In this document: piece by piece, positions 4,231-14,627 of the stretch
Layout: each line of letters starts with the position of its first letter
How positions within the stretch are numbered: the stretch's first letter is position 1
DNA from: Anaerolineales bacterium
GTDB taxonomy: Bacteria; Chloroflexota; Anaerolineae; Anaerolineales; UBA4823
Reading direction: 5' to 3'
Assembly (NCBI GenBank): GCA_016935755.1
Contig: JAFGQI010000015.1
Span: 1 to 64,000, forward strand
Length of the DNA stretch: 64,000 nucleotides
Position numbers and translations under genes: made by a program
Notes under the pieces: model-generated
Database searches by the model: none
What the model was told of the DNA's origin: nothing
What the model saw: only the letters and a program-made list of their open reading frames with translations

Positions 4231-5361
4231 CTACGGATGAGCTGAAATGACGATCACCACCGTCCGGTTCCTCAGGCGGTTGGCGGTTGAGTCGTTCGGG
4301 TACGGCGCTGGCTCGTCCGCCTGCGGGTGGAGCGTAAACAGGCTGGCGGGGAGCTGGGTAGTGGCCCGCAGGTGGTCGTAGACCGCCAGGGCGCGCAGCA
4401 GGCCGAGGTCCAGGTAGCTTTCGGCCTCGTCATCGGCCTGGCAGCCAGTCAGGGTGACCTGGATTCTGGCGGTGTAAGGCTCCAGCGCCTGGCCCAGGCG
4501 GGTGAGCAGCGCCCGGCTCTCGGGTTTGAGCGTCCAGCCGTAGGCGAACAGCCCACCTTCGAATGTCAGGGTGACTCTCCTGTTCTCTTGCAGCACCCGG
4601 ATGCCGGGCATCTGGATGGCCAGATCCAGCGGGGGAACAGGTGTCTCCTGCAGGCTGGTGAGCAGTTCGCCCTGGCTGTTCTGGATTGCCAGCACCTGGT
4701 CGAACAGCGCATCCTGGGTGGCCTGGTTCAGGCGCACCTCGCCCAGCACGGCCTGCTGCATCAGTTCCAGGTCTGCTGAGGAGAGGCCGGGCGGCAGGGT
4801 CGGGTAAGGTGAGGCGGCGATCACCAGCGCAGTGGGGAGTGGGCGGGCGGCGCTGGTCTGCACTGCCGCCAGCTCATCCGACAGGGAAGCCAATCTGCCC
4901 TGCACCTCGCCCAGCCGGGACAGGCTCAGCCCCAGCAGCGCCAGGCCAACCAGGGCCAGCAGCCACAGCCAGGCGCGTCCTGACAGGAAGCCCAGGCGGA
5001 CGGGTTTCTGCTGGCGGGTGACATACTGCAGGCCTTCCAGGTAGGCCGGATTGGCTGGCTCCAGAGCCAGGGCTTTGCTCCACAGCGCCTCGGCCTCCGC
5101 CAGACGCCCCTGCTGGGCGCGCATGCGCGCCAGCAGATCCAGCGCCGCAGGGCGGCTTTCGATATCAGGCAGGGTCTCCAGCAGCCCTTCGGCCTGCTGG
5201 TATTGGCCCGACCTGGCAAGATGATGGGCGCGGGCCAGGGTAGCCTGTTCGATCAAGGGGGCCAGTTCGGGCGGTGCGTCTGGTATTGGTGCAGGCTCCG
5301 CCGGGGTGGACTGCAGGCCGGGCAGGTAGGGGCTTTCCAGGCTGTCGAAATCGGAGGACAT
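4231..5361 (-). CDS. TPR protein with one membrane helix and C-terminal OmpA-like domain
   Basis: The 376-residue protein has an N-terminal TPR-like helical region (about 35-115), a single membrane helix (about 130-150), a coiled/linker stretch and a C-terminal OmpA/MotB-like fold (about 245-375). The OmpA part shows the typical beta start (RVTLTFEGGLFAYG), the helix with LLRALAVYDHL and the end ANRLRNRTVVIVI. OmpA-like domains bind peptidoglycan, so the C-terminus should face the wall and the TPRs the cytoplasm. It is the last gene of the Hsp70 operon, 19 bases after the active Hsp70. The TPRs could dock the chaperones or clients to the envelope; this is an inference from position and architecture. 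Confidence 0.8.
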   Translation of the reverse strand: MSSDFDSLESPYLPGLQSTPAEPAPIPDAPPELAPLIEQATLARAHHLARSGQYQQAEGLLETLPDIESRPAALDLLARMRAQQGRLAEAEALWSKALALEPANPAYLEGLQYVTRQQKPVRLGFLSGRAWLWLLALVGLALLGLSLSRLGEVQGRLASLSDELAAVQTSAARPLPTALVIAASPYPTLPPGLSSADLELMQQAVLGEVRLNQATQDALFDQVLAIQNSQGELLTSLQETPVPPLDLAIQMPGIRVLQENRRVTLTFEGGLFAYGWTLKPESRALLTRLGQALEPYTARIQVTLTGCQADDEAESYLDLGLLRALAVYDHLRATTQLPASLFTLHPQADEPAPYPNDSTANRLRNRTVVIVISAHP

Positions 5362-5380
5362 GAGCTTGCTCCCTGAACGG

Positions 5381-7879
5381 CTAAATCACTCCAGAACCAA
5401 ACCCGCCGCGCAGTTCTTCCTGCTGGTCGGAGGGCAGCAGGGCGATCAGCTGCTGCACCACGGCTTTCAGGCGCTGGACATCGTTGTTCTGCATGGCGAT
5501 CTGCCCCTGAGCGAAGAGCTGGTCGGCCTGGGCGCGGTCGCGCATCAGCGAACGTTTCTCCTGCAGGTGCTGGAAGAAACCGCCCCAGAACTCTGGCTTT
5601 TCCACCAGGATGCGCAGCGCCAGGCCGTGGGCGTCTTCCACCAGGCGGCGCAGCTGGTCGACATCCCGGCTGCGAATGGCCTGCTGGATGCCCTGCTCCA
5701 GCTGATCCATCAGCTGGCGGTTGTCCTCATCGCCATAATCATGGATGATCTGGCGAGTGTTGGTGATTTGCTGTTGGGCTTCGGCCACCAGCGCCGGCCA
5801 TTCCAGAGCATCTTCCACCTGGTCGATGGTGACTTTTAGATCGATCAGGCGGTTTTGCGCCTTGTCGGCTGCGTCTCGGTCGCCCCCCGCGGCGGATAGC
5901 GAGGTGTCAATTTGTTCCACCATCTGCTCGCCTTCCACCTTTTCCTGGATGATGCGCTGGGCGGCTTCGTCGTTGGTTTCATGAGCCTTGCGCCGGGCGG
6001 CTTCCAGGCGTTTTTTCTCCCGCTCCAATTCGTCTTCCAGGCGGTCGATGTCGGGGGTGGGTTTGTCGAGCTTATGCACTTCTTCGACTTCCAAATCCAG
6101 GATGGGGATATAGGCCGAAGTCTTGAGCAGGCGGCTTTCGTCAATCTCGATAGTAACTTCCACATCACTGCCTGCTGGTACATCGCGGCGGATGCTGACT
6201 GCGGGAATGGACAGAGTGCCGATCAGCCGGTTGCGGTCGGCGCGGGCATTATCGCCCTCGATCACCGGCACATGGATAAACTCTCCAGCTGCGCCCATGT
6301 GGATGGTGGCGGCGGTCTTCAGGTCCCGGCGCTGACGGGCGGGGAGTGGAGTGCCCTTCTCAAAGAATTTTCGCACTTCGTTGTTCGCCAGCGCCACCCC
6401 CACGCTGTGGATCAATGGCGGGGCGTCGGGGGTGATGCCGATGGTGTAGTTGAAGTGGTCGGGCTGCACCAGCAGGCGCGCTCCGGAGGCGTCAAAAAGC
6501 TCGATGCGGAAGGTGTTGGACTTGCCGCGCTGCGCCCACAGGGTGGTCATAAAGGAGCCATTTGGGCCAAGATTGATCCTGCCGCTGCGCCAGGCAGGCT
6601 GGGCGCCAGGGTTGATGAACTCAATCGCCAGGCCATCCAGAGACTGGCCTTCTGGGGCCCGCACCTGCCCGCCCACTACCGGTTCAACGTCTGCCCCAAC
6701 CGGGTCGTATTCCAGTTCGATCTGATAGGTGGTCTTCTTCTCCTCCCCTGTCATGGGTACGCCCTCCAGACGTTGAGAGCTGGCGAAGATGGCTGCGCCT
6801 TGAGCAACCACTGTGAGTGGGTCGATGCTGAAGTCCAGCGGTATGCCTAACCCCTGGTGGGGGTCGTTCAGATGGTCGCGCACATAAGGTGCCAGGGTCG
6901 GCCCGCCCACCAGCACCACTTTTTGGATGGCGGTCATGCTCAGGCGTTTTTCGGCCAGGGCCTGGCGGCTGATATTGATCGTGCGTTGGATGAAGGGTTC
7001 GGCCAAACGGGCAACATCGGCGCGGCGCAGTTCATACTCGAAGGCCACCGCCTCACCGTTATCGTCATTGCACAGGTAATCGAGGTAGATCTGAACAGAG
7101 TCGTCCTGCGACAGGCGGATTTTAGCTTCTTCGGCTGCCAGTTTTAGCTTGGCAAATGCCTTGCGCCACTTCGGGTTGCTGCGCGCAAAATTGCCCAGGT
7201 GATGGTCGCGAGCAGCGGCCGGGGCAAGCAAGCTTTCAACGATCTCCCAATCGATCAGCTTGCCGCCCAGATGGTTGTCACCGGAGTGATTGACGATGCG
7301 GAAGGTGCCCTCACGGATCTGGATCACCGCAGCATCAAAAGTGCCGCCGCCAAAGTCATACACCAGCCAGAAAACCTTGTCCACCTGGGTCTGGAAAGCG
7401 TGCGCCATGGCAGCCGCGGTAGGTTCCATGATCAGCGGGCTGGTCTGGATGCCTGCCAGCTGGGCGGCGCGCTTGGTGGCCTCGCACTGCGGCAGCTCGA
7501 AGGCCGCCGGGACGGTGATCACAGCGGCTTGCAGGTCTTCGTTCAAGCGCTGCTGCACATCGGCGCGCAGCGACTTCAGGATTTCGGCGGAGAGATCTTC
7601 CGGGTGCATCACCCGCCCCGAGCGGGCAAAGCGGTATTCGGCCTGGGCGCCCATCTGCAGCTTGAACTCGGCGTAGGCGTCGTCCGGTTCCAGCTCGATG
7701 CGCTGCTTGGCAAAGCGACCCACCTTCATGTTGCCTTTGTTATCAATATAGACTGCCGAGGGGGTATAGTCCAGGTTATCGTTGTTCTTGATCACTGCGG
7801 CGCGTGTGCCATCCATCACCGCAATGGCGCTGTTGGTGGTGCCCAGGTCAATGCCGAAATCAATTGTCATTCTGCTCAT
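5381..7879 (-). CDS. Hsp70-family chaperone with intact ATPase motifs and coiled-coil C-terminus
   Basis: The 832-residue Hsp70 has a full actin-like nucleotide-binding domain in about residues 1-375. Phosphate-1 is DLGTTNS (Asp11). The catalytic-lysine equivalent is Lys73 in EFKLQMG, Glu152 sits in EPTAAA, phosphate-2 is DFGGGTFD (Asp175, Thr180) and the adenosine motif is VGGPTLAP. The C-terminal half is not a standard DnaK substrate domain: a beta-rich part (about 400-590) is followed by a long charged helical coiled-coil region. It starts inside the last codons of the degenerate Hsp70 (4-bp overlap), which suggests translational coupling and equal dosage. The presence of all ATPase residues argues that this is the active subunit of the pair. 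Confidence 0.93.
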   Translation of the reverse strand: MSRMTIDFGIDLGTTNSAIAVMDGTRAAVIKNNDNLDYTPSAVYIDNKGNMKVGRFAKQRIELEPDDAYAEFKLQMGAQAEYRFARSGRVMHPEDLSAEILKSLRADVQQRLNEDLQAAVITVPAAFELPQCEATKRAAQLAGIQTSPLIMEPTAAAMAHAFQTQVDKVFWLVYDFGGGTFDAAVIQIREGTFRIVNHSGDNHLGGKLIDWEIVESLLAPAAARDHHLGNFARSNPKWRKAFAKLKLAAEEAKIRLSQDDSVQIYLDYLCNDDNGEAVAFEYELRRADVARLAEPFIQRTINISRQALAEKRLSMTAIQKVVLVGGPTLAPYVRDHLNDPHQGLGIPLDFSIDPLTVVAQGAAIFASSQRLEGVPMTGEEKKTTYQIELEYDPVGADVEPVVGGQVRAPEGQSLDGLAIEFINPGAQPAWRSGRINLGPNGSFMTTLWAQRGKSNTFRIELFDASGARLLVQPDHFNYTIGITPDAPPLIHSVGVALANNEVRKFFEKGTPLPARQRRDLKTAATIHMGAAGEFIHVPVIEGDNARADRNRLIGTLSIPAVSIRRDVPAGSDVEVTIEIDESRLLKTSAYIPILDLEVEEVHKLDKPTPDIDRLEDELEREKKRLEAARRKAHETNDEAAQRIIQEKVEGEQMVEQIDTSLSAAGGDRDAADKAQNRLIDLKVTIDQVEDALEWPALVAEAQQQITNTRQIIHDYGDEDNRQLMDQLEQGIQQAIRSRDVDQLRRLVEDAHGLALRILVEKPEFWGGFFQHLQEKRSLMRDRAQADQLFAQGQIAMQNNDVQRLKAVVQQLIALLPSDQQEELRGGFGSGVI

Positions 7880-10344
7880 GGGGTTCTCCTTACAAGGAAG
7901 GTTTGTTTCAGGATTTCATTTTTTAGCTGGCAAAGGTCGCTCTCTGCGGCTGCGATCAGTTCTATCAGCTGGGGCAGCAGGCTTTCCAGGCGGTTGAGGT
8001 CAGCTTCAGCCAGCCCGGCCTGGATCTGCGCCTGCAGCTCGTCCAGCCGGGAACTGGTGGTTTGATCCTGGCCCTGAGCAATGAGCGCCTGCAGGCTGGT
8101 AAGCAGCGCGGCGCGCTCTGCCAGGATCGCGCTGGCGGCCTGCAGCAGCAGGGCGGTGGAATGCCCGGCTGAAGCCAGGCGGTCTTGCATTTCCTGGGCA
8201 TACAGCAGCTCAAATGCATCCAGTAAGCTGGAGAGCTGGCCGGATAGGTTGGCAGCCTGGGCGGCTGCCAGGTGGTCTCCCAGCGCGGCCAGGGCGATTT
8301 TTTCTTCGATCGCTTCAATCCAACTGCGCTCGTTCACCTGGGCCTGCCACAAACTCTGCATGGCGGGGCTGCCGGTGTGAGCCAGGCGCTCCTGCAGGCT
8401 GTGCTGGCGCTCCTTGAGCCGCACGAATTCAATTTCCAACGGGCGAGTGTCCGGAGGCGGCGGGGGTGGGGCAGGCAGCGCGGGTTCGGAGGGCGGTGTT
8501 GGCTGCTCCACCAGCAGGGCTTCTTCCGTATTGTCCGGCTCAGGCGTGGGCAGGGGAGATTCTGGCGCGATTGGGGCGGGCGGTTCGGGAACTGGCTCAG
8601 GGCGGGCTGACCCGATCCGGACGGTGTCCGCGGCCTGGGGAGTCGCAGCCAGCGTTTTAGCCGGCTGCTCCGGTTCTGGCAGTTCGATCTGCGTCACCGG
8701 GGGCTGCGGTGTGATAGCCTGCACCAGGTCGGTCTTGAATAAATCTGGTTCGAGCAGTTTGGCGGAAGGCAGCACCGCAGGCTGCACCGGTTCCTGTCCA
8801 GCCTGCGCTGGCTCTGCTGGCGCGGCTTCGGCTCCAGCTTCCAGGGCTTCGGCTGGCAGACGCACCGTCTTGGCGCCTTCGGCGGGGGGCGGGGCAGATT
8901 GGACGGCTGGCAGGACAACCCGGTCGGGCTCAACCAGGCAGCGCCGGCCGGATTTGTCGCTCAGTTCGATGCTGATCACATTTTCCTGGCCCTGTATGAT
9001 CCATAAGGCAGTGATGAAGCTGCCATCCTGTCCCAGGGTACGTTTTCCGCTGCGCCAGGGAGGCTGCATGGACGAGTTGATAAACTCGAGCTGATAACCT
9101 AATGGATTTCCCTCGCCCGGCGCCTGCACCTGCCCACTGATGATCGGTTCGGTATCATCTTTGTCGAGTGTTTCAATCTCCAGTGCGATAGTGCAGGTTT
9201 CTTGTTCATCAGGGACATTCTCATCCAACACCACAGGCTGGCGGCTGGCTAAAATGGCTGCCCCCTGGGCGATAACTGTCAAGGGGTCGATGCTGTATTC
9301 CAGCGGGATGCCCAATCCGTGTTGTGGATCGTTCAATTGGTCGCGCACGAAGGGCGACAATGCTGGTGCACCAACCAGGATGGCTTTCTGCAGGTTGGCC
9401 GGATCCAGGCCGGCTTGAGCTAAAACCTTCAGACTGAGGTCTATTGTACGCTGCACGAGCGGTTCGACCAGCCTGACCACCTCGCTCCGGCGCAGTTCAT
9501 ATTCAAATGCCACCGGGTCGCCGTTGGCATCTTTGCACAGGAAATCGATCACAATCTGGGTGGTCTCAGCCTGGATCAAGCGAAGCCGCGCCGCCTCGGC
9601 TTCCTGTTTCAGTTTGGCAAAGGCTTTGCGCCAGAGGGAGTTGGAACGGACGAAATCGCTCAGCTGGTGGTCGCGAGCAGCAGTTGGGGCGAGCAGGCTA
9701 TCCACGATCTCCCAATCGATCATCTTATCGCCAAGATGATTATCGCCATCGTATTGGGCCACGCGAATTTCCCCCTGGTATATCTCGACCACAGCCACCT
9801 CAAAGGACCAGCCTTTCAATTGATAGACCAGCCAGAACTGGCGCTCGGTGTTCTTCGTATCGGCATAAGCTGCCGCGGCGGCGGTTGGTTCAAGGATCAG
9901 CAAGCATTGCTTGATCCCAGCCAATTTAGCTGCCCGCCGCACCGCTTCGCACTGCGGCAGTTCAAAAGCTGCCGGGATGGTGATGACAGCAGCCTGCAGG
10001 TCTTCCTCCAGCCGCTGTTTGACATCTGCGCGCAGCGATTTGAGCAGTTCGGCTGCCAGTTCTTCTGCTCGCATTTGTTTACCGGCGCGGTTGAAACGGT
10101 ACTCGGCATCCGAGCCTATCCGTAAAAGAAAATCTGCATGTGCGTTATCTGGTTCCAGGGAGAGGCGCTGCCAGGCTTGCCGCCCAACCTTCAGAATACT
10201 ATTTTTGTCAATATAGACAGCCGAGGGAGTCAGATCATGTCCTTCATTGTTCTTTACCATCTCAGCCTGTTGGCCGTTAAACACGGCCACAGCGCAGTTC
10301 TCGCTGCCCAGGTAAATGCCAAAATCAATCTGAGTTCTTTCCAT
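7876..10344 (-). CDS. Degenerate (pseudo-ATPase) Hsp70-family protein
   Basis: This 822-residue paralogue aligns with the downstream Hsp70 without gaps through the first 190 residues, yet its catalytic positions are changed. Phosphate-1 DLGTTNS is YLGSENC (Asp11 to Tyr). Lys73 is Leu (DFLLRIG). Phosphate-2 DFGGGTFD is QLKGWSFE (Asp175 to Gln, Thr180 to Ser). The adenosine motif VGGP is VGAP. Glu152 and the overall fold are kept, and the frame is open, so this is not decay into a pseudogene. After the ATPase-like domain comes a beta-rich region, then a Pro/Ala/Glu-rich linker (about 500-660) and a helical tail. It probably binds nucleotide poorly or not at all and may serve as a scaffold or regulator of its active neighbour. 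Confidence 0.9.
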   Translation of the reverse strand: MERTQIDFGIYLGSENCAVAVFNGQQAEMVKNNEGHDLTPSAVYIDKNSILKVGRQAWQRLSLEPDNAHADFLLRIGSDAEYRFNRAGKQMRAEELAAELLKSLRADVKQRLEEDLQAAVITIPAAFELPQCEAVRRAAKLAGIKQCLLILEPTAAAAAYADTKNTERQFWLVYQLKGWSFEVAVVEIYQGEIRVAQYDGDNHLGDKMIDWEIVDSLLAPTAARDHQLSDFVRSNSLWRKAFAKLKQEAEAARLRLIQAETTQIVIDFLCKDANGDPVAFEYELRRSEVVRLVEPLVQRTIDLSLKVLAQAGLDPANLQKAILVGAPALSPFVRDQLNDPQHGLGIPLEYSIDPLTVIAQGAAILASRQPVVLDENVPDEQETCTIALEIETLDKDDTEPIISGQVQAPGEGNPLGYQLEFINSSMQPPWRSGKRTLGQDGSFITALWIIQGQENVISIELSDKSGRRCLVEPDRVVLPAVQSAPPPAEGAKTVRLPAEALEAGAEAAPAEPAQAGQEPVQPAVLPSAKLLEPDLFKTDLVQAITPQPPVTQIELPEPEQPAKTLAATPQAADTVRIGSARPEPVPEPPAPIAPESPLPTPEPDNTEEALLVEQPTPPSEPALPAPPPPPPDTRPLEIEFVRLKERQHSLQERLAHTGSPAMQSLWQAQVNERSWIEAIEEKIALAALGDHLAAAQAANLSGQLSSLLDAFELLYAQEMQDRLASAGHSTALLLQAASAILAERAALLTSLQALIAQGQDQTTSSRLDELQAQIQAGLAEADLNRLESLLPQLIELIAAAESDLCQLKNEILKQTFLVRRTP

Positions 10345-10350
10345 AGATTT

Positions 10351-11028
10351 TTATATCGTGTCGGCTGGAGGTTCTTGTGGGGGAGTTTCTGTCGAAACGG
10401 GGATGACCGGAGTCGCCACGATCACCTCACCCATTTGGATTAACCAACGGTTACTGTCTCGTTCGTAGTAAATGGAGGGCTTGATTGTCTCCGAGACCAC
10501 TTCACGCTGGATGCCTGGATGAGTTTCAAAGGTCACAACTTTTAAGTCCAGGCCCGAGTCATAAGGCTGGTTGGTGTGGTCAATGATGGTCACGCCAGAT
10601 TCCTGGAGCGTATCCCACACGCTCTGGAAATGGCGATACGCCCGGCGAACTTCTTCCAGCGGCTGGTCGCTGCCTGGCTGGAGCAGCTTCTGGCGCAGCC
10701 GCCACAGCCCGGTGCCCATGTCAGCCAACAGACGCATCTGTTCTTTGAAAAAATGGGATTCCTTCTGACCAGCCTCTGCTGCTGCGGCAGCTGGCGCTGT
10801 GCTGCCTGCCTGGCTGCTCGACTTAATATGGGTGACCAGGTTTTGGTACACCATATCGGCTTCAGTCTGGGACATCGGGCTGCCGATTTGTATCGAGCGG
10901 CTGAAGAGAAATTGAGTCAGGTCAGCTGCCAGGTCCCTGATCCAGGCGGTGTTAGGGACCGGGCGTTTGGCTGAAGGTAATCTCGGGGCAGGGGAGCCGC
11001 TTCTTCGGATGTTTCTGCTTCCAGACAT
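10351..11028 (-). CDS. Small cytoplasmic protein in the position of a GrpE-like exchange factor
   Basis: The 225-residue protein has a basic, Pro/Arg-rich start, a helical middle (about 30-140, with an Ala-rich loop) and a compact beta-rich C-terminal module (about 140-205) containing DHTNQPYDSGLDLKVV and IQMGEVIVATP. The shape (long helix, then small beta domain ending in a strand that reads EVIVATP) recalls GrpE, whose C-terminal beta domain docks on Hsp70. No decisive GrpE signature is visible, so this is inference from shape and operon position. It ends 7 bases before the degenerate Hsp70 gene begins. It could equally be an uncharacterised Hsp70 cofactor. Confidence 0.6.
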   Translation of the reverse strand: MSGSRNIRRSGSPAPRLPSAKRPVPNTAWIRDLAADLTQFLFSRSIQIGSPMSQTEADMVYQNLVTHIKSSSQAGSTAPAAAAAEAGQKESHFFKEQMRLLADMGTGLWRLRQKLLQPGSDQPLEEVRRAYRHFQSVWDTLQESGVTIIDHTNQPYDSGLDLKVVTFETHPGIQREVVSETIKPSIYYERDSNRWLIQMGEVIVATPVIPVSTETPPQEPPADTI

Positions 11029-11063
11029 GAGTGCTCGCTTTCTCCTGACAAGGGAATCCGTGA

Positions 11064-13466
11064 TCAGGTTACGAATTTAAACAGCTTCCCGATCCCGTAT
11101 GCCAGGATGGTGCCTAAAAGGGGAGCTGCCAAAAAGACGAAGGTGTTCTCTATGATCAAGATATTTGGTGAACTAAAGCTCAGAAAAAACAAGTTGATCC
11201 CATAGGTGATCAGATTCACCAGCACCAGGATCCCCAGGGTGAGCTTGGATTTACGGAACAGCCAGAAAGTCACACCCAGGATGAAGGGAGACAGGATAAA
11301 AAACGGGTTGGAGGCAACCGCGGTCGACTGGGTGAAGAAATCTGTCAGGGTAGCAGCCGTAGAGCGACGCGTGATGAGGTATGCCAGGTTGGCAGGCAGA
11401 CATATGACCGTACCCATGATGAAAGCGCCAAGTTGGGGATTGGTCGCAAAGGAAGATTCCAGGTTGGCCCTTAGCAGGATCAGAGGAATGAATGAAATGG
11501 TGATGATCAATATGCTGACGCCAATCGCCCGCCAGTTGCTGGCAGGTTGGCCTGGCGCACGGGGAGCGCTCTTTGTTCTGGCAGCAGCGCTGGGAGAACC
11601 GACTGCTGGCGATGGTACCGGTTGGGAGGTTTTTACTGGCTTTTGACTGGTTGTTCCCGCATCCCAGCGCGCTGGCAGAGATAGGTTGAGATCCTTGGCG
11701 ATTTTTCGAGTAGCTTCCAGGTTGCCGCGCACAATCTGGTTGTTGGGATCCAATTCCTGGGCGCGCATCAAATCTCGGGAGATCTCGATCAGGGCTTTCC
11801 CGAAGTTGCTCTTGCGACCCTCCATCTCGTGATCGTCCTCGGCGTTGCAGTTCGGGCAGATCAGGAATTTGGAGTTTTCATGGCTGAAAGTGATCCAGCG
11901 GGTGACATGGGCTCCGCAGGCCATGCACACCAATTGGCCCATCTGGGCGGCCATCTGTTCTGTGCCGCCTAATACAGCGCTGATCGTCATATAGAGAAAC
12001 TTATCTGCTGAGTCCAGGCGGCTCTTGATTTTCATGAAAATCCGCCGCGGCCGGTCAAGCTCCAGGGAGGCCACCCTAAGCAGGTCATTGGATCGCTGGT
12101 TCAAGGCGGTGCTGAGCGCTTTGTGCACCAGCTTGAGTTGGTGGGAATCCAGCGGAGGGCTGGCGGTGGTGAGCAGTCCTTCCAGGATGGGGATGGAATG
12201 TTCGTAATCGCTGCTCTTGTGGTGTTGGCGAGCCTTTTCCATCGGTTCCAGGATGTGGGGCGGCAGATCAAAATATCCCTCTCCGCACCAGTCATTGCCC
12301 GACTCGAGATTGCCCTTCAGCGTACTGACATTATCCTGCAGCCGGCTGCGCGCCGAGGGGCTGGCGGCGATTGCCAGGTATTGCTCCATCAAGCCAAGCG
12401 CCTCCTGCCAGTTCTCGGTGGTGTTGCCATACGAAACCAGGCAGCTCAATCCGCGCAGGGCAATCTCATCATGCAGCACCTGGCGGATAGTGGCAGTCTC
12501 AGGCAGCAGGCGGTCGATGATCTGCAGTAAGGGCTGGCACTGCTCCAGCAGGCCGCGCGCCACCTGATTGCCGCGCACAGGATCAGCCTCAGCCTGGGAC
12601 TCAGCGTTTTTGCAGTAGGTCTTGATGCGCTCACGCATTGGGCCGAGGGCGCGCTGCAGCGCGTCGCTGACCACTTCTGGTGGGAATTCAGCCAGTTGAA
12701 TGGTGCGCAGCTGCCTCTCAACCACGGCTTCATCACCGCGTTCGTAAGCCTGGATCGCCAGGCGCACATTGATCATCAGCAAGCCCATCGGCAGCATAGC
12801 GCGCATACTCTGCACAGTGCTGCCATCCAGGCGGGGGTCATCGAATTCGCGCACCCGGGCGGTCAACCGGCTCCAGAAGGCATCATGGTTGAGCAGGTTG
12901 CTCCAGCGACGAAAGGTCTGCCGCCAATAGATGTCCAGGTTTCTGAGTTGGCTTTCGCTGAGCGACCGGTCTTCCAGGATCTTCATTTCTAAATCCAGCG
13001 CCATCAGGTGCGAACGCACTGCCAGGTTATGGATCGAGACGTTGTCAGCGCTGTAATTGTTGGCGTAATTGCTCCAGATCTCAACCGCTTCTTCAACCTG
13101 ATCCTGGCGCAGAGCTGTCAGGGCTTCATCATTTTTACCATCGCCCAACTCATGGGGCCAAAACCAGAAGAACTCGTCAATGAAGCGCCTTTCCGGGTCT
13201 CGCAGGCGCTGCACCGCCTCGCCAATGCCATATTTATCCAGCGTTCGATCCAGGGGCAAAGCCCTGCCTGGGCCGGGTAGAGGCGGTACGCCGGTCTTTT
13301 GGGCGATCTCGATCACTTTCTGGCGTCTCGAGACATCCATCTCCCCGCAGTCCACTGGCAGTTCCAGCAGACGAAAGGCGTTTATCTGGTAGATATTAGG
13401 CTGGGCAGCCTCGATGAATAACTCTCCCAGGCTGGTCAGACTGGCAGTATGGTTTGATATCGGCAT
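11064..13466 (-). CDS. Membrane protein with degenerate J-like N-terminus, central zinc ribbon and C-terminal membrane helices
   Basis: Of the 800 residues, about 20-105 look like a J domain in layout: a start like NAFRLLELPVD, a long helix pair, and an end like LRDPERRFIDEFFWFWP. The HPD tripeptide required to stimulate Hsp70 is absent. A long helical solenoid follows. A zinc ribbon with two Cys pairs (CMACG and CPNCN) lies at about 510-545. Four or so hydrophobic helices fill about 655-800 after a Pro/Ala/Lys linker, so the bulk should be cytoplasmic and membrane tethered. It lies between the kinase gene (9 bases) and the GrpE-position gene. Context suggests a targeting factor for the two Hsp70s. 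Confidence 0.7.
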   Translation of the reverse strand: MPISNHTASLTSLGELFIEAAQPNIYQINAFRLLELPVDCGEMDVSRRQKVIEIAQKTGVPPLPGPGRALPLDRTLDKYGIGEAVQRLRDPERRFIDEFFWFWPHELGDGKNDEALTALRQDQVEEAVEIWSNYANNYSADNVSIHNLAVRSHLMALDLEMKILEDRSLSESQLRNLDIYWRQTFRRWSNLLNHDAFWSRLTARVREFDDPRLDGSTVQSMRAMLPMGLLMINVRLAIQAYERGDEAVVERQLRTIQLAEFPPEVVSDALQRALGPMRERIKTYCKNAESQAEADPVRGNQVARGLLEQCQPLLQIIDRLLPETATIRQVLHDEIALRGLSCLVSYGNTTENWQEALGLMEQYLAIAASPSARSRLQDNVSTLKGNLESGNDWCGEGYFDLPPHILEPMEKARQHHKSSDYEHSIPILEGLLTTASPPLDSHQLKLVHKALSTALNQRSNDLLRVASLELDRPRRIFMKIKSRLDSADKFLYMTISAVLGGTEQMAAQMGQLVCMACGAHVTRWITFSHENSKFLICPNCNAEDDHEMEGRKSNFGKALIEISRDLMRAQELDPNNQIVRGNLEATRKIAKDLNLSLPARWDAGTTSQKPVKTSQPVPSPAVGSPSAAARTKSAPRAPGQPASNWRAIGVSILIITISFIPLILLRANLESSFATNPQLGAFIMGTVICLPANLAYLITRRSTAATLTDFFTQSTAVASNPFFILSPFILGVTFWLFRKSKLTLGILVLVNLITYGINLFFLSFSSPNILIIENTFVFLAAPLLGTILAYGIGKLFKFVT

Positions 13467-13475
13467 ACTATTTTC

Positions 13476-14627
13476 CTACTTATTTGATGCGTTCCGGTCT
13501 GGCGGCATGGCAACAGTCATCACCCCCCGCCGCCACAGCGTCACCTGCCATTCGTATTCTTCGCGCAAATCGGGCCATTTATTGAAGGCCTCTTCCATTA
13601 AGTCAGCAGCTTCGCTCAACCTGTCTGCGCGGCGCGCCAGTTTGAGCGCTTTCTCTACCATTCCCCTGGCTTCACTCTGGTTCGGGCTGGAAACCGGTCC
13701 CAGGGCGTCTTTGTTGGTTTCGGTGATGACCATCTTGGCTGGACTGATCGAGCCGGGCTCGACCGGCTTCCATTTTTCCAGGTCAGCCAGCAGCTGGATG
13801 GCAGAGGGGTAACGGTTTTTGGGGTGAATAGCCAGGCAGCGGCAGACGATCTGGTCCAGGCCGGGATCTACCTGGATGTTGAGCTGGCTGGGAGGGATGA
13901 GCGGCTGGTCGAAATTAAAATCATCCACCAGGCTGGCCTGTCCAGGGTCACCGAAGGGGAAACGGTCGGTCAATAAAAGATACAGCGTGCAGCCGAGCGC
14001 CCAGACGTCCCCCATGCAGGAGTCTTTTTGATAATCCTTGAAGGTTTCGGGGGCCTTGAAGACGCGCGTGCCCTTCGCGCTGACCATCAGGGTCATCGGG
14101 TTGGCCCGCTTGGCCAGGCCGAAGTCGCTAACGCACACCCGCATACCGCCAGCATCGTAACCAATGAGCATGTTTTGCGGTTTGATGTCACGATGGACGA
14201 TTGGAGGTTTCTCGCTGTGGCCCACGGCAATGCCGCGGGATGCCTGGCGGACGATATCGACAGCATTCTCGACTGGCATCAGCTTCAACCCGAACGATTT
14301 CCAGTGGTGATCCAAGCTGCCGCCAGCCAGGTACTCCATGGTGAAATAACCGCACAGCCCTTTGCTGGTTTCGGCGATATTGGCGTCAAAGACCTGGATG
14401 ATATTACGATGGTGAATTTGCGAGAGCAGTACGGCTTCCTGGAGCATCTGCTCGATCTCTTCTATGGACATGCCGGTGGCTTTGAATACTTTCATCGCCT
14501 GACGTCCCAGAAAGCGGTGGCGGACGCGGTACACTTCTGCAAAGGCGCCTTCCCCCAGGAAGCGCTCAATGGTGTAGGATTGACCTATTACCTGGCCGTC
14601 TTTTAACAGCCGGATTTCTTCATCCAT
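13476..14627 (-). CDS. Eukaryotic-type serine/threonine protein kinase (cytoplasmic, no membrane helix)
   Basis: The 383-residue Hanks-type kinase has all key motifs: glycine loop GEGAFAEV (25-32), ATP lysine Lys46 in AMKVFK, helix-C Glu64, catalytic loop HRDIKPQN (145-152), DFG (168-170) and APE in FKAPETFK. The kinase domain ends near residue 290. The remaining 90 residues are helical and TPR-like (ALKLARRADRLSEAADLMEE). There is no membrane helix or PASTA domain, unlike PknB/PrkC. It is the second gene of the Hsp70 operon and overlaps nothing, with a 9-base gap to the next gene. Likely substrates are the neighbouring chaperones, which is inference. Confidence 0.93.
   Translation of the reverse strand: MDEEIRLLKDGQVIGQSYTIERFLGEGAFAEVYRVRHRFLGRQAMKVFKATGMSIEEIEQMLQEAVLLSQIHHRNIIQVFDANIAETSKGLCGYFTMEYLAGGSLDHHWKSFGLKLMPVENAVDIVRQASRGIAVGHSEKPPIVHRDIKPQNMLIGYDAGGMRVCVSDFGLAKRANPMTLMVSAKGTRVFKAPETFKDYQKDSCMGDVWALGCTLYLLLTDRFPFGDPGQASLVDDFNFDQPLIPPSQLNIQVDPGLDQIVCRCLAIHPKNRYPSAIQLLADLEKWKPVEPGSISPAKMVITETNKDALGPVSSPNQSEARGMVEKALKLARRADRLSEAADLMEEAFNKWPDLREEYEWQVTLWRRGVMTVAMPPDRNASNK

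Follow-up and report, generated by a model that had tools for sequence, protein, structure and literature searches.

A tandem Hsp70 paralogue without a recognisable nucleotide site in a bacterial chaperone-kinase operon, and its possible engagement of shared co-chaperones

Few ATPases are as conserved as the NBDs of Hsp70s, and even Ssz1, the non-catalytic Hsp70 studied best, is still able to bind ATP. The locus described here raises the question of what keeps a long, intact Hsp70 gene in a bacterial genome when its product has lost the ATP site and an active-site-intact copy is encoded next to it. The window analysed is a stretch of 64,000 nucleotides (positions 1 to 64,000, forward strand, of contig JAFGQI010000015.1, assembly GCA_016935755.1) from an Anaerolineales bacterium, whose metagenome-assembled genome comprises 177 contigs and is 87.5% complete, with 7.45% contamination. 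The gene order on the minus strand of the window is P0005 (kinase), P0004, P0003, P0001, P0002 and P0006; their coordinates are given in Table 1. An earlier note, made from the DNA letters, had singled out P0001 as a pseudo-ATPase coupled to an active paralogue, and the coordinates, the intact frame and the 4-bp overlap that it reported for this gene were all correct. A promoter and terminator scan returned no more sites than chance.

Table 1. Coordinates (in the window) of the genes, domains and signals of the operon
Feature	Position	Strand	Remarks
P0006, TPR, TM, OmpA/MotB-like C-terminus	4231..5361	-	
P0002, active-site-intact Hsp70, 832 aa	5381..7879	-	NBD 6770-7879, insert 6422-6742, SBD-beta 6065-6418, helical lid and tail
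P0001, pseudo-Hsp70, 822 aa	7876..10344	-	NBD with destroyed ATP site, Ig-like insert, disordered Pro/Ala linker, C-terminal helices
P0001 residues 1-370, actin-like NBD, fold kept	9235..10344	-	AF2 pLDDT mostly >90
P0001 residues 378-486, beta-sandwich (Ig-like) insert common to the family	8887..9213	-	42% identical to P0002
P0001 residues 487-632, Pro/Ala-rich linker replacing SBD-beta	8449..8886	-	37 Pro in 146
P0001 residues 633-822, helical C-terminal part	7879..8448	-	weak similarity to P0002 C-terminal helices
ATGA stop/start overlap P0001/P0002	7876-7879	-	read from sequence
Shine-Dalgarno-like AAGGAG	7886-7891	-	inside P0001 frame, 6 nt ahead of P0002 start
P0003, GrpE-like protein, 225 aa	10351..11028	-	homologue PF01025 matches, PDB profile match to GrpE 4ani
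P0004, J-like/TPR-type helical protein, 800 aa, zinc-ribbon-like and membrane segments	11064..13466	-	J-like N-terminus without HPD
P0005, Ser/Thr protein kinase	13476..14627	-	HRD, DFG, lysine motifs intact

The overall identity of P0001 and P0002 is 42%, and their NBDs (370 residues, 61% identical) align without gaps, as had been claimed for the N-terminal domains. Tyr11, Leu73, Gln175 and Ser180 of P0001 stand exactly as described against Asp11, Lys73, Asp175 and Thr180 of P0002; the reported loss of the phosphate-2 GGG (KGW in P0001) and retention of Glu152 were also borne out. The damage to the ATP site extends beyond these changes (D11Y, K73L, D175Q, G177K, G179W and T180S), since T14S, T15E, D182E, G206D, K253R and G326A were found as well. 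Both Mg-coordinating aspartates, the catalytic lysine and the phosphate-1 threonines are jointly gone, and two phosphate-2 glycines have been replaced, one by Lys and one by Trp; E152, G200-D201, E250, G325 and the overall fold of the cleft are retained. When near-invariant columns were compared, 11 of 16 at the ATP site were altered in P0001 against 7 of the 40 others in the NBD (18 of 56 in total), a difference unlikely to be due to chance (Fisher p = 4 × 10–4, with the ATP-contacting positions mapped by us from knowledge of DnaK and Hsc70). By sequence, P0001 therefore lacks the ATP/Mg-binding and catalytic residues of an Hsp70 chaperone. The DFG..N and GGG pattern expected for active members is present in three further Hsp70-like proteins that this genome encodes (C66, C35 and C145).

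P0001 belongs to the Hsp70 superfamily, as indicated by its match to PF00012 (190.9 bits) and by an AlphaFold2 (AF2) model built with 65 family sequences, the NBD of which matches DnaK NBDs (the best being the M. genitalium DnaK-NBD, 5oby; TM 0.89, rmsd 2.7). The NBD, the insert and the C-terminal helices were modelled with confidence, in agreement with the earlier claim that the NBD fold is kept, while residues 487-573 and 576-621 (pLDDT <50) are predicted to be disordered. The earlier note had overlooked that P0001 has no SBD-beta: the corresponding stretch shows 12% identity and cannot be aligned, the family median being 45%, so that the peptide-binding part of an Hsp70 chaperone is missing too.

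To place the pair among its relatives, a three-sequence profile was searched against 84,980 species genomes, which rendered 149 loci with relatives; 80 were kept. These 80 relatives of the pair's Hsp70 are found in about a dozen phyla, including Actinomycetota, Verrucomicrobiota, Acidobacteriota, Planctomycetota, Bacteroidota, Chloroflexota and Thermodesulfobacteriota. Most of the loci contain a conserved operon encoding a kinase, a J-like/TPR protein, a GrpE-like protein, an Hsp70 and a TPR/OmpA-like protein, although the order differs in some lineages (e.g. Actinomadura); the GrpE-like gene lies directly upstream of the single Hsp70 gene in 72 of the 75 loci where it is recognisable. No second Hsp70 was detected within about 10 kb in any of the 80 loci when all reading frames were searched with a profile, the one extra match being a fragment of a frameshifted gene in locus L108. 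An alignment was then made of 82 single-copy-type sequences (the 80 loci, a copy in genome G235 that duplicates L055, and P0002), in which the sites of interest are covered by P0002 and 79 orthologues, the frameshifted L108 sequence lacking its first part. D11, T14, K73, E152, D175, G177-G179, T180, D182 and G326 are kept by every covering sequence, and T15 is replaced by Ser in one; P0001 is the sole departure. The system is rare in the phylum of the window's genome: searches with P0002 found it in 2 of 301, 3 of 400 and 4 of 396 genomes of the phylum, order and class, respectively (overlapping sets that include the window's genome), and these, together with a search of 400 phylum genomes with P0004, returned rare single-copy relatives only.

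In the family tree, P0001 and P0002 are sisters with a support of 100/100, which places the duplication in this lineage, after its split from all other sampled members. The copy without an ATP site is thus a tandem duplicate, so far private to this lineage; no orthologue of P0001 was found in the contigs of the genome, in 61 relatives or in 38 family genomes. The two copies diverged asymmetrically, the P0001 branch (0.87) being about five times longer than that of P0002 (0.18), a divergence that rules out the recent mutation of a single strain against which the earlier note had cautioned. That note had also looked to orthologues for conservation of the four substitutions. All relatives detected are single-copy Hsp70s with their catalytic residues intact; this limits the loss to the present lineage, where it is so far seen in one genome.

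The partners encoded in the operon bear on any role proposed for P0001. P0003 itself has no Pfam match, but 18 of 38 homologues match PF01025 (best E = 1.2 × 10–4) and its best PDB profile match is GrpE 4ani (E = 0.029); these profile scores are weak but consistent with a GrpE-like protein. The N-terminus of P0004 is J-like (hhalign E = 3.3 × 10–6 in a single comparison, probability 88%) and has no HPD at the HPD position, so it falls outside J domains proper. The remainder of P0004 is confidently predicted as a TPR-like helical array, for which Foldseek returned TPR-like matches only, none with E <0.001. The HPD-less J-like domain is conserved across the P0004 family, with near-invariant W, P and G residues. 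With PADLOC models no anti-phage defence system was recognised, the kinase alone giving matches, to generic kinase models.

If P0001 no longer uses nucleotide, the parts of its NBD that remain constrained might reveal what it does. With ATP-site positions left out, P0001 and P0002 are 68% identical in lobe IIB and 51% in lobe IIA; for comparison, P0002 and any of the 80 other members share at most 59% in lobe IIB. At +0.17, the IIB-minus-IIA difference is larger than in any of 565 family pairs with a comparable overall identity (median –0.16, maximum +0.05), with the qualification that these pairs are non-independent and that an alignment to DnaK supplied the limits of the subdomains. Since the two copies have their genome and a recent ancestor in common, while the comparison pairs come from different genomes, shared history could account for part of the signal. 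Recent gene conversion was considered as its cause and rejected, as pS is even along the NBD (0.58-0.72). In DnaK, GrpE contacts lobes IB and IIB (1dkg structure); the constraint on IIB would most simply mean that one GrpE-like protein is still bound by both copies. The earlier note had favoured a stoichiometric regulator or scaffold of the active Hsp70; the conserved lobe IIB points rather to a shared GrpE-like co-chaperone than to a heteromer with that protein.

These results are consistent with the idea, to which we give about an even chance, that P0001 is a non-catalytic Hsp70 that engages shared co-chaperones as a decoy or scaffold. The Hsp70 gene of a conserved chaperone operon was duplicated in tandem in this lineage, and the upstream copy has lost its nucleotide site and SBD-beta while retaining the NBD fold with its lobe IB/IIB surface. 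The product would be a nucleotide-independent, Hsp70-shaped protein, presumably translated together with the active P0002, whose NBD may still bind the GrpE-like protein of the operon and possibly the J-like/TPR protein too; by occupying or scaffolding these co-chaperones it could set the activity or the location of the active Hsp70. Were this so, a bacterial Hsp70 with a constrained surface and no recognisable nucleotide site would uncouple the fold's role in protein docking from that as an ATPase. T15E and G177K lie on opposite sides of what was the phosphate site and, at a guess, might form a salt bridge that replaces the nucleotide. An elaboration that we regard as a long shot is that this E15-K177 bridge, together with the Pro-rich tail that replaces the SBD and acts as a pseudo-substrate for the active paralogue, would hold P0001 in a permanent nucleotide-free Hsp70/GrpE/TPR regulatory complex, analogous to eukaryotic RAC and of independent origin.

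As a tentative alternative, rather unlikely on balance, P0001 could pair directly and stoichiometrically with P0002 through their NBDs, as a heterodimer or scaffold comparable to the cooperation of Ssz1 with Ssb or to nucleotide exchange by Hsp110 on Hsc70. The paralogue is adjacent and translationally coupled, the fold is kept, and Hsp110-Hsc70 complexes are an established precedent; however, the region-specific constraint falls on IIB, the lobe contacted by GrpE in DnaK, and exchange of the Hsp110 type requires a nucleotide-bound Hsp110, a state that the site of P0001 should not support. That P0001 might instead act as a ligand-gated switch, its remodelled cleft still taking up a nucleotide or some other small molecule, seems improbable: the residues and cleft fold that survive would suit such a role, but the Mg aspartates, the catalytic lysine, the phosphate-1 threonines and two phosphate-2 glycines have all been lost together.

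It is also very doubtful that P0001 is a functionless duplicate on its way to decay and simply not yet broken, as its accelerated branch, the loss of its active site and SBD-beta and the failure to find orthologues might suggest. Its 822 codons contain no stop codon, whereas about 30 were produced (minimum 16, 500 runs) in a neutral simulation run at the observed fourfold divergence, and NBD identity was 0.61 against 0.18 in the simulation. An absence of stops and an identity so far above neutral indicate that the gene has been kept as a protein. Between the NBDs of P0001 and P0002, pS was 0.66 and pN 0.24, giving a dN/dS of about 0.18, a rough value since dS is near saturation, and constraint differs non-randomly by lobe. 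A pseudogene was rejected on the counts of stops and the dN/dS. The observation on P0001 is real and not a product of decay, so far private to one genome. Of the earlier proposal that the loss of catalysis looks selected, what stands is that the ATP site was specifically lost in an NBD under purifying selection, a loss tolerated or selected. An assembly or binning artefact is scarcely credible despite the fragmented genome (177 contigs) and an arrangement seen in no other, since the pair lies inside a 166-kb contig, in frame with the ATGA overlap, P0001 groups as sister to P0002 and is not a foreign sequence, and a chimera would not give clustered ATP-site changes in an open frame.

The closest analogues of P0001 appear to be yeast Ssz1 and, in bacterial GAP1-N2 systems, the second Hsp70 that has no SBD. 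Ssz1, which acts with Zuo1 in the ribosome-associated complex as a partner of Ssb, is likewise a non-catalytic paralogue accompanying an active Hsp70 and a J protein, with a reduced substrate-binding part. It binds ATP but does not hydrolyse it, and its rudimentary SBD retains an SBD-beta (PMC7083937). In contrast, P0001 has neither SBD-beta nor the ATP-binding residues, so binding without hydrolysis would not be expected of it; the J-like protein of the operon has no HPD, there is no link to the ribosome, and P0001 and Ssz1 are related only through the NBD that Hsp70s have in common. For some GAP1-N2 systems, the passage of Kaur et al. (2020) on them describes a second HSP70-domain gene without a peptide-binding domain, beside genes for Hsp70, GrpE and DnaJ/TPR proteins, and that passage makes no mention of catalytic-residue loss (PMC7159879). 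As defined there, those systems differ in having GAP1-N2 and GTPase genes with FNIII-repeat proteins (PMC7159879). No such genes were recognised, with profiles other than that of GAP1-N2 itself, in the window operon or among the 25 commonest Pfam families listed for 52 flanking genes of related loci. Hsp110/Grp170 proteins resemble P0001 as diverged Hsp70s that act on an active Hsp70; an extended SBD is retained in Hsp110, which also binds ATP. The composition of the operon (Hsp70, GrpE-like, J-like) recalls DnaK-DnaJ-GrpE, from which it differs by the added kinase and TPR/OmpA proteins, the HPD-less J-like domain and the Ig-like insert between the NBD and SBD of its Hsp70. Neither this five-gene operon nor a bacterial Hsp70 without an ATP site was found described in the limited collection of literature searched, and the locus draws attention to a widespread chaperone-kinase operon.

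Several minor observations were made during the survey. The five-gene operon (4231-14627 in the window; loci L048-L127) has a patchy, transfer-like distribution over its dozen or so phyla. No match was found in the viral contigs searched, and the plasmids searched gave distant Hsp70s only, one of them on Haliscomenobacter plasmid L134 (NC_015512.1), beside the BREX genes brxL and pglZ. The operon kinase is split into two frames in a Dehalococcoidia genome (L042:6974-8062, the same as L055). Besides canonical DnaKs (C131 and C57), the genome of the window encodes the atypical Hsp70-like proteins C35 (L006:1123-3762), C66 (L005:1051-2643) and C145 (L008:946-2436), among which one is fused to HEAT-like repeats, one is encoded beside a WD40-like gene and one has an N-terminal extension. 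In two related loci a gene for a ClpB-like AAA disaggregase adjoins the operon (L118:13470-18022 and L099:13549-15834), followed in L118 by a gene for a DnaJ-TPR protein, which raises the possibility that the operon belongs to an alternative disaggregase set.
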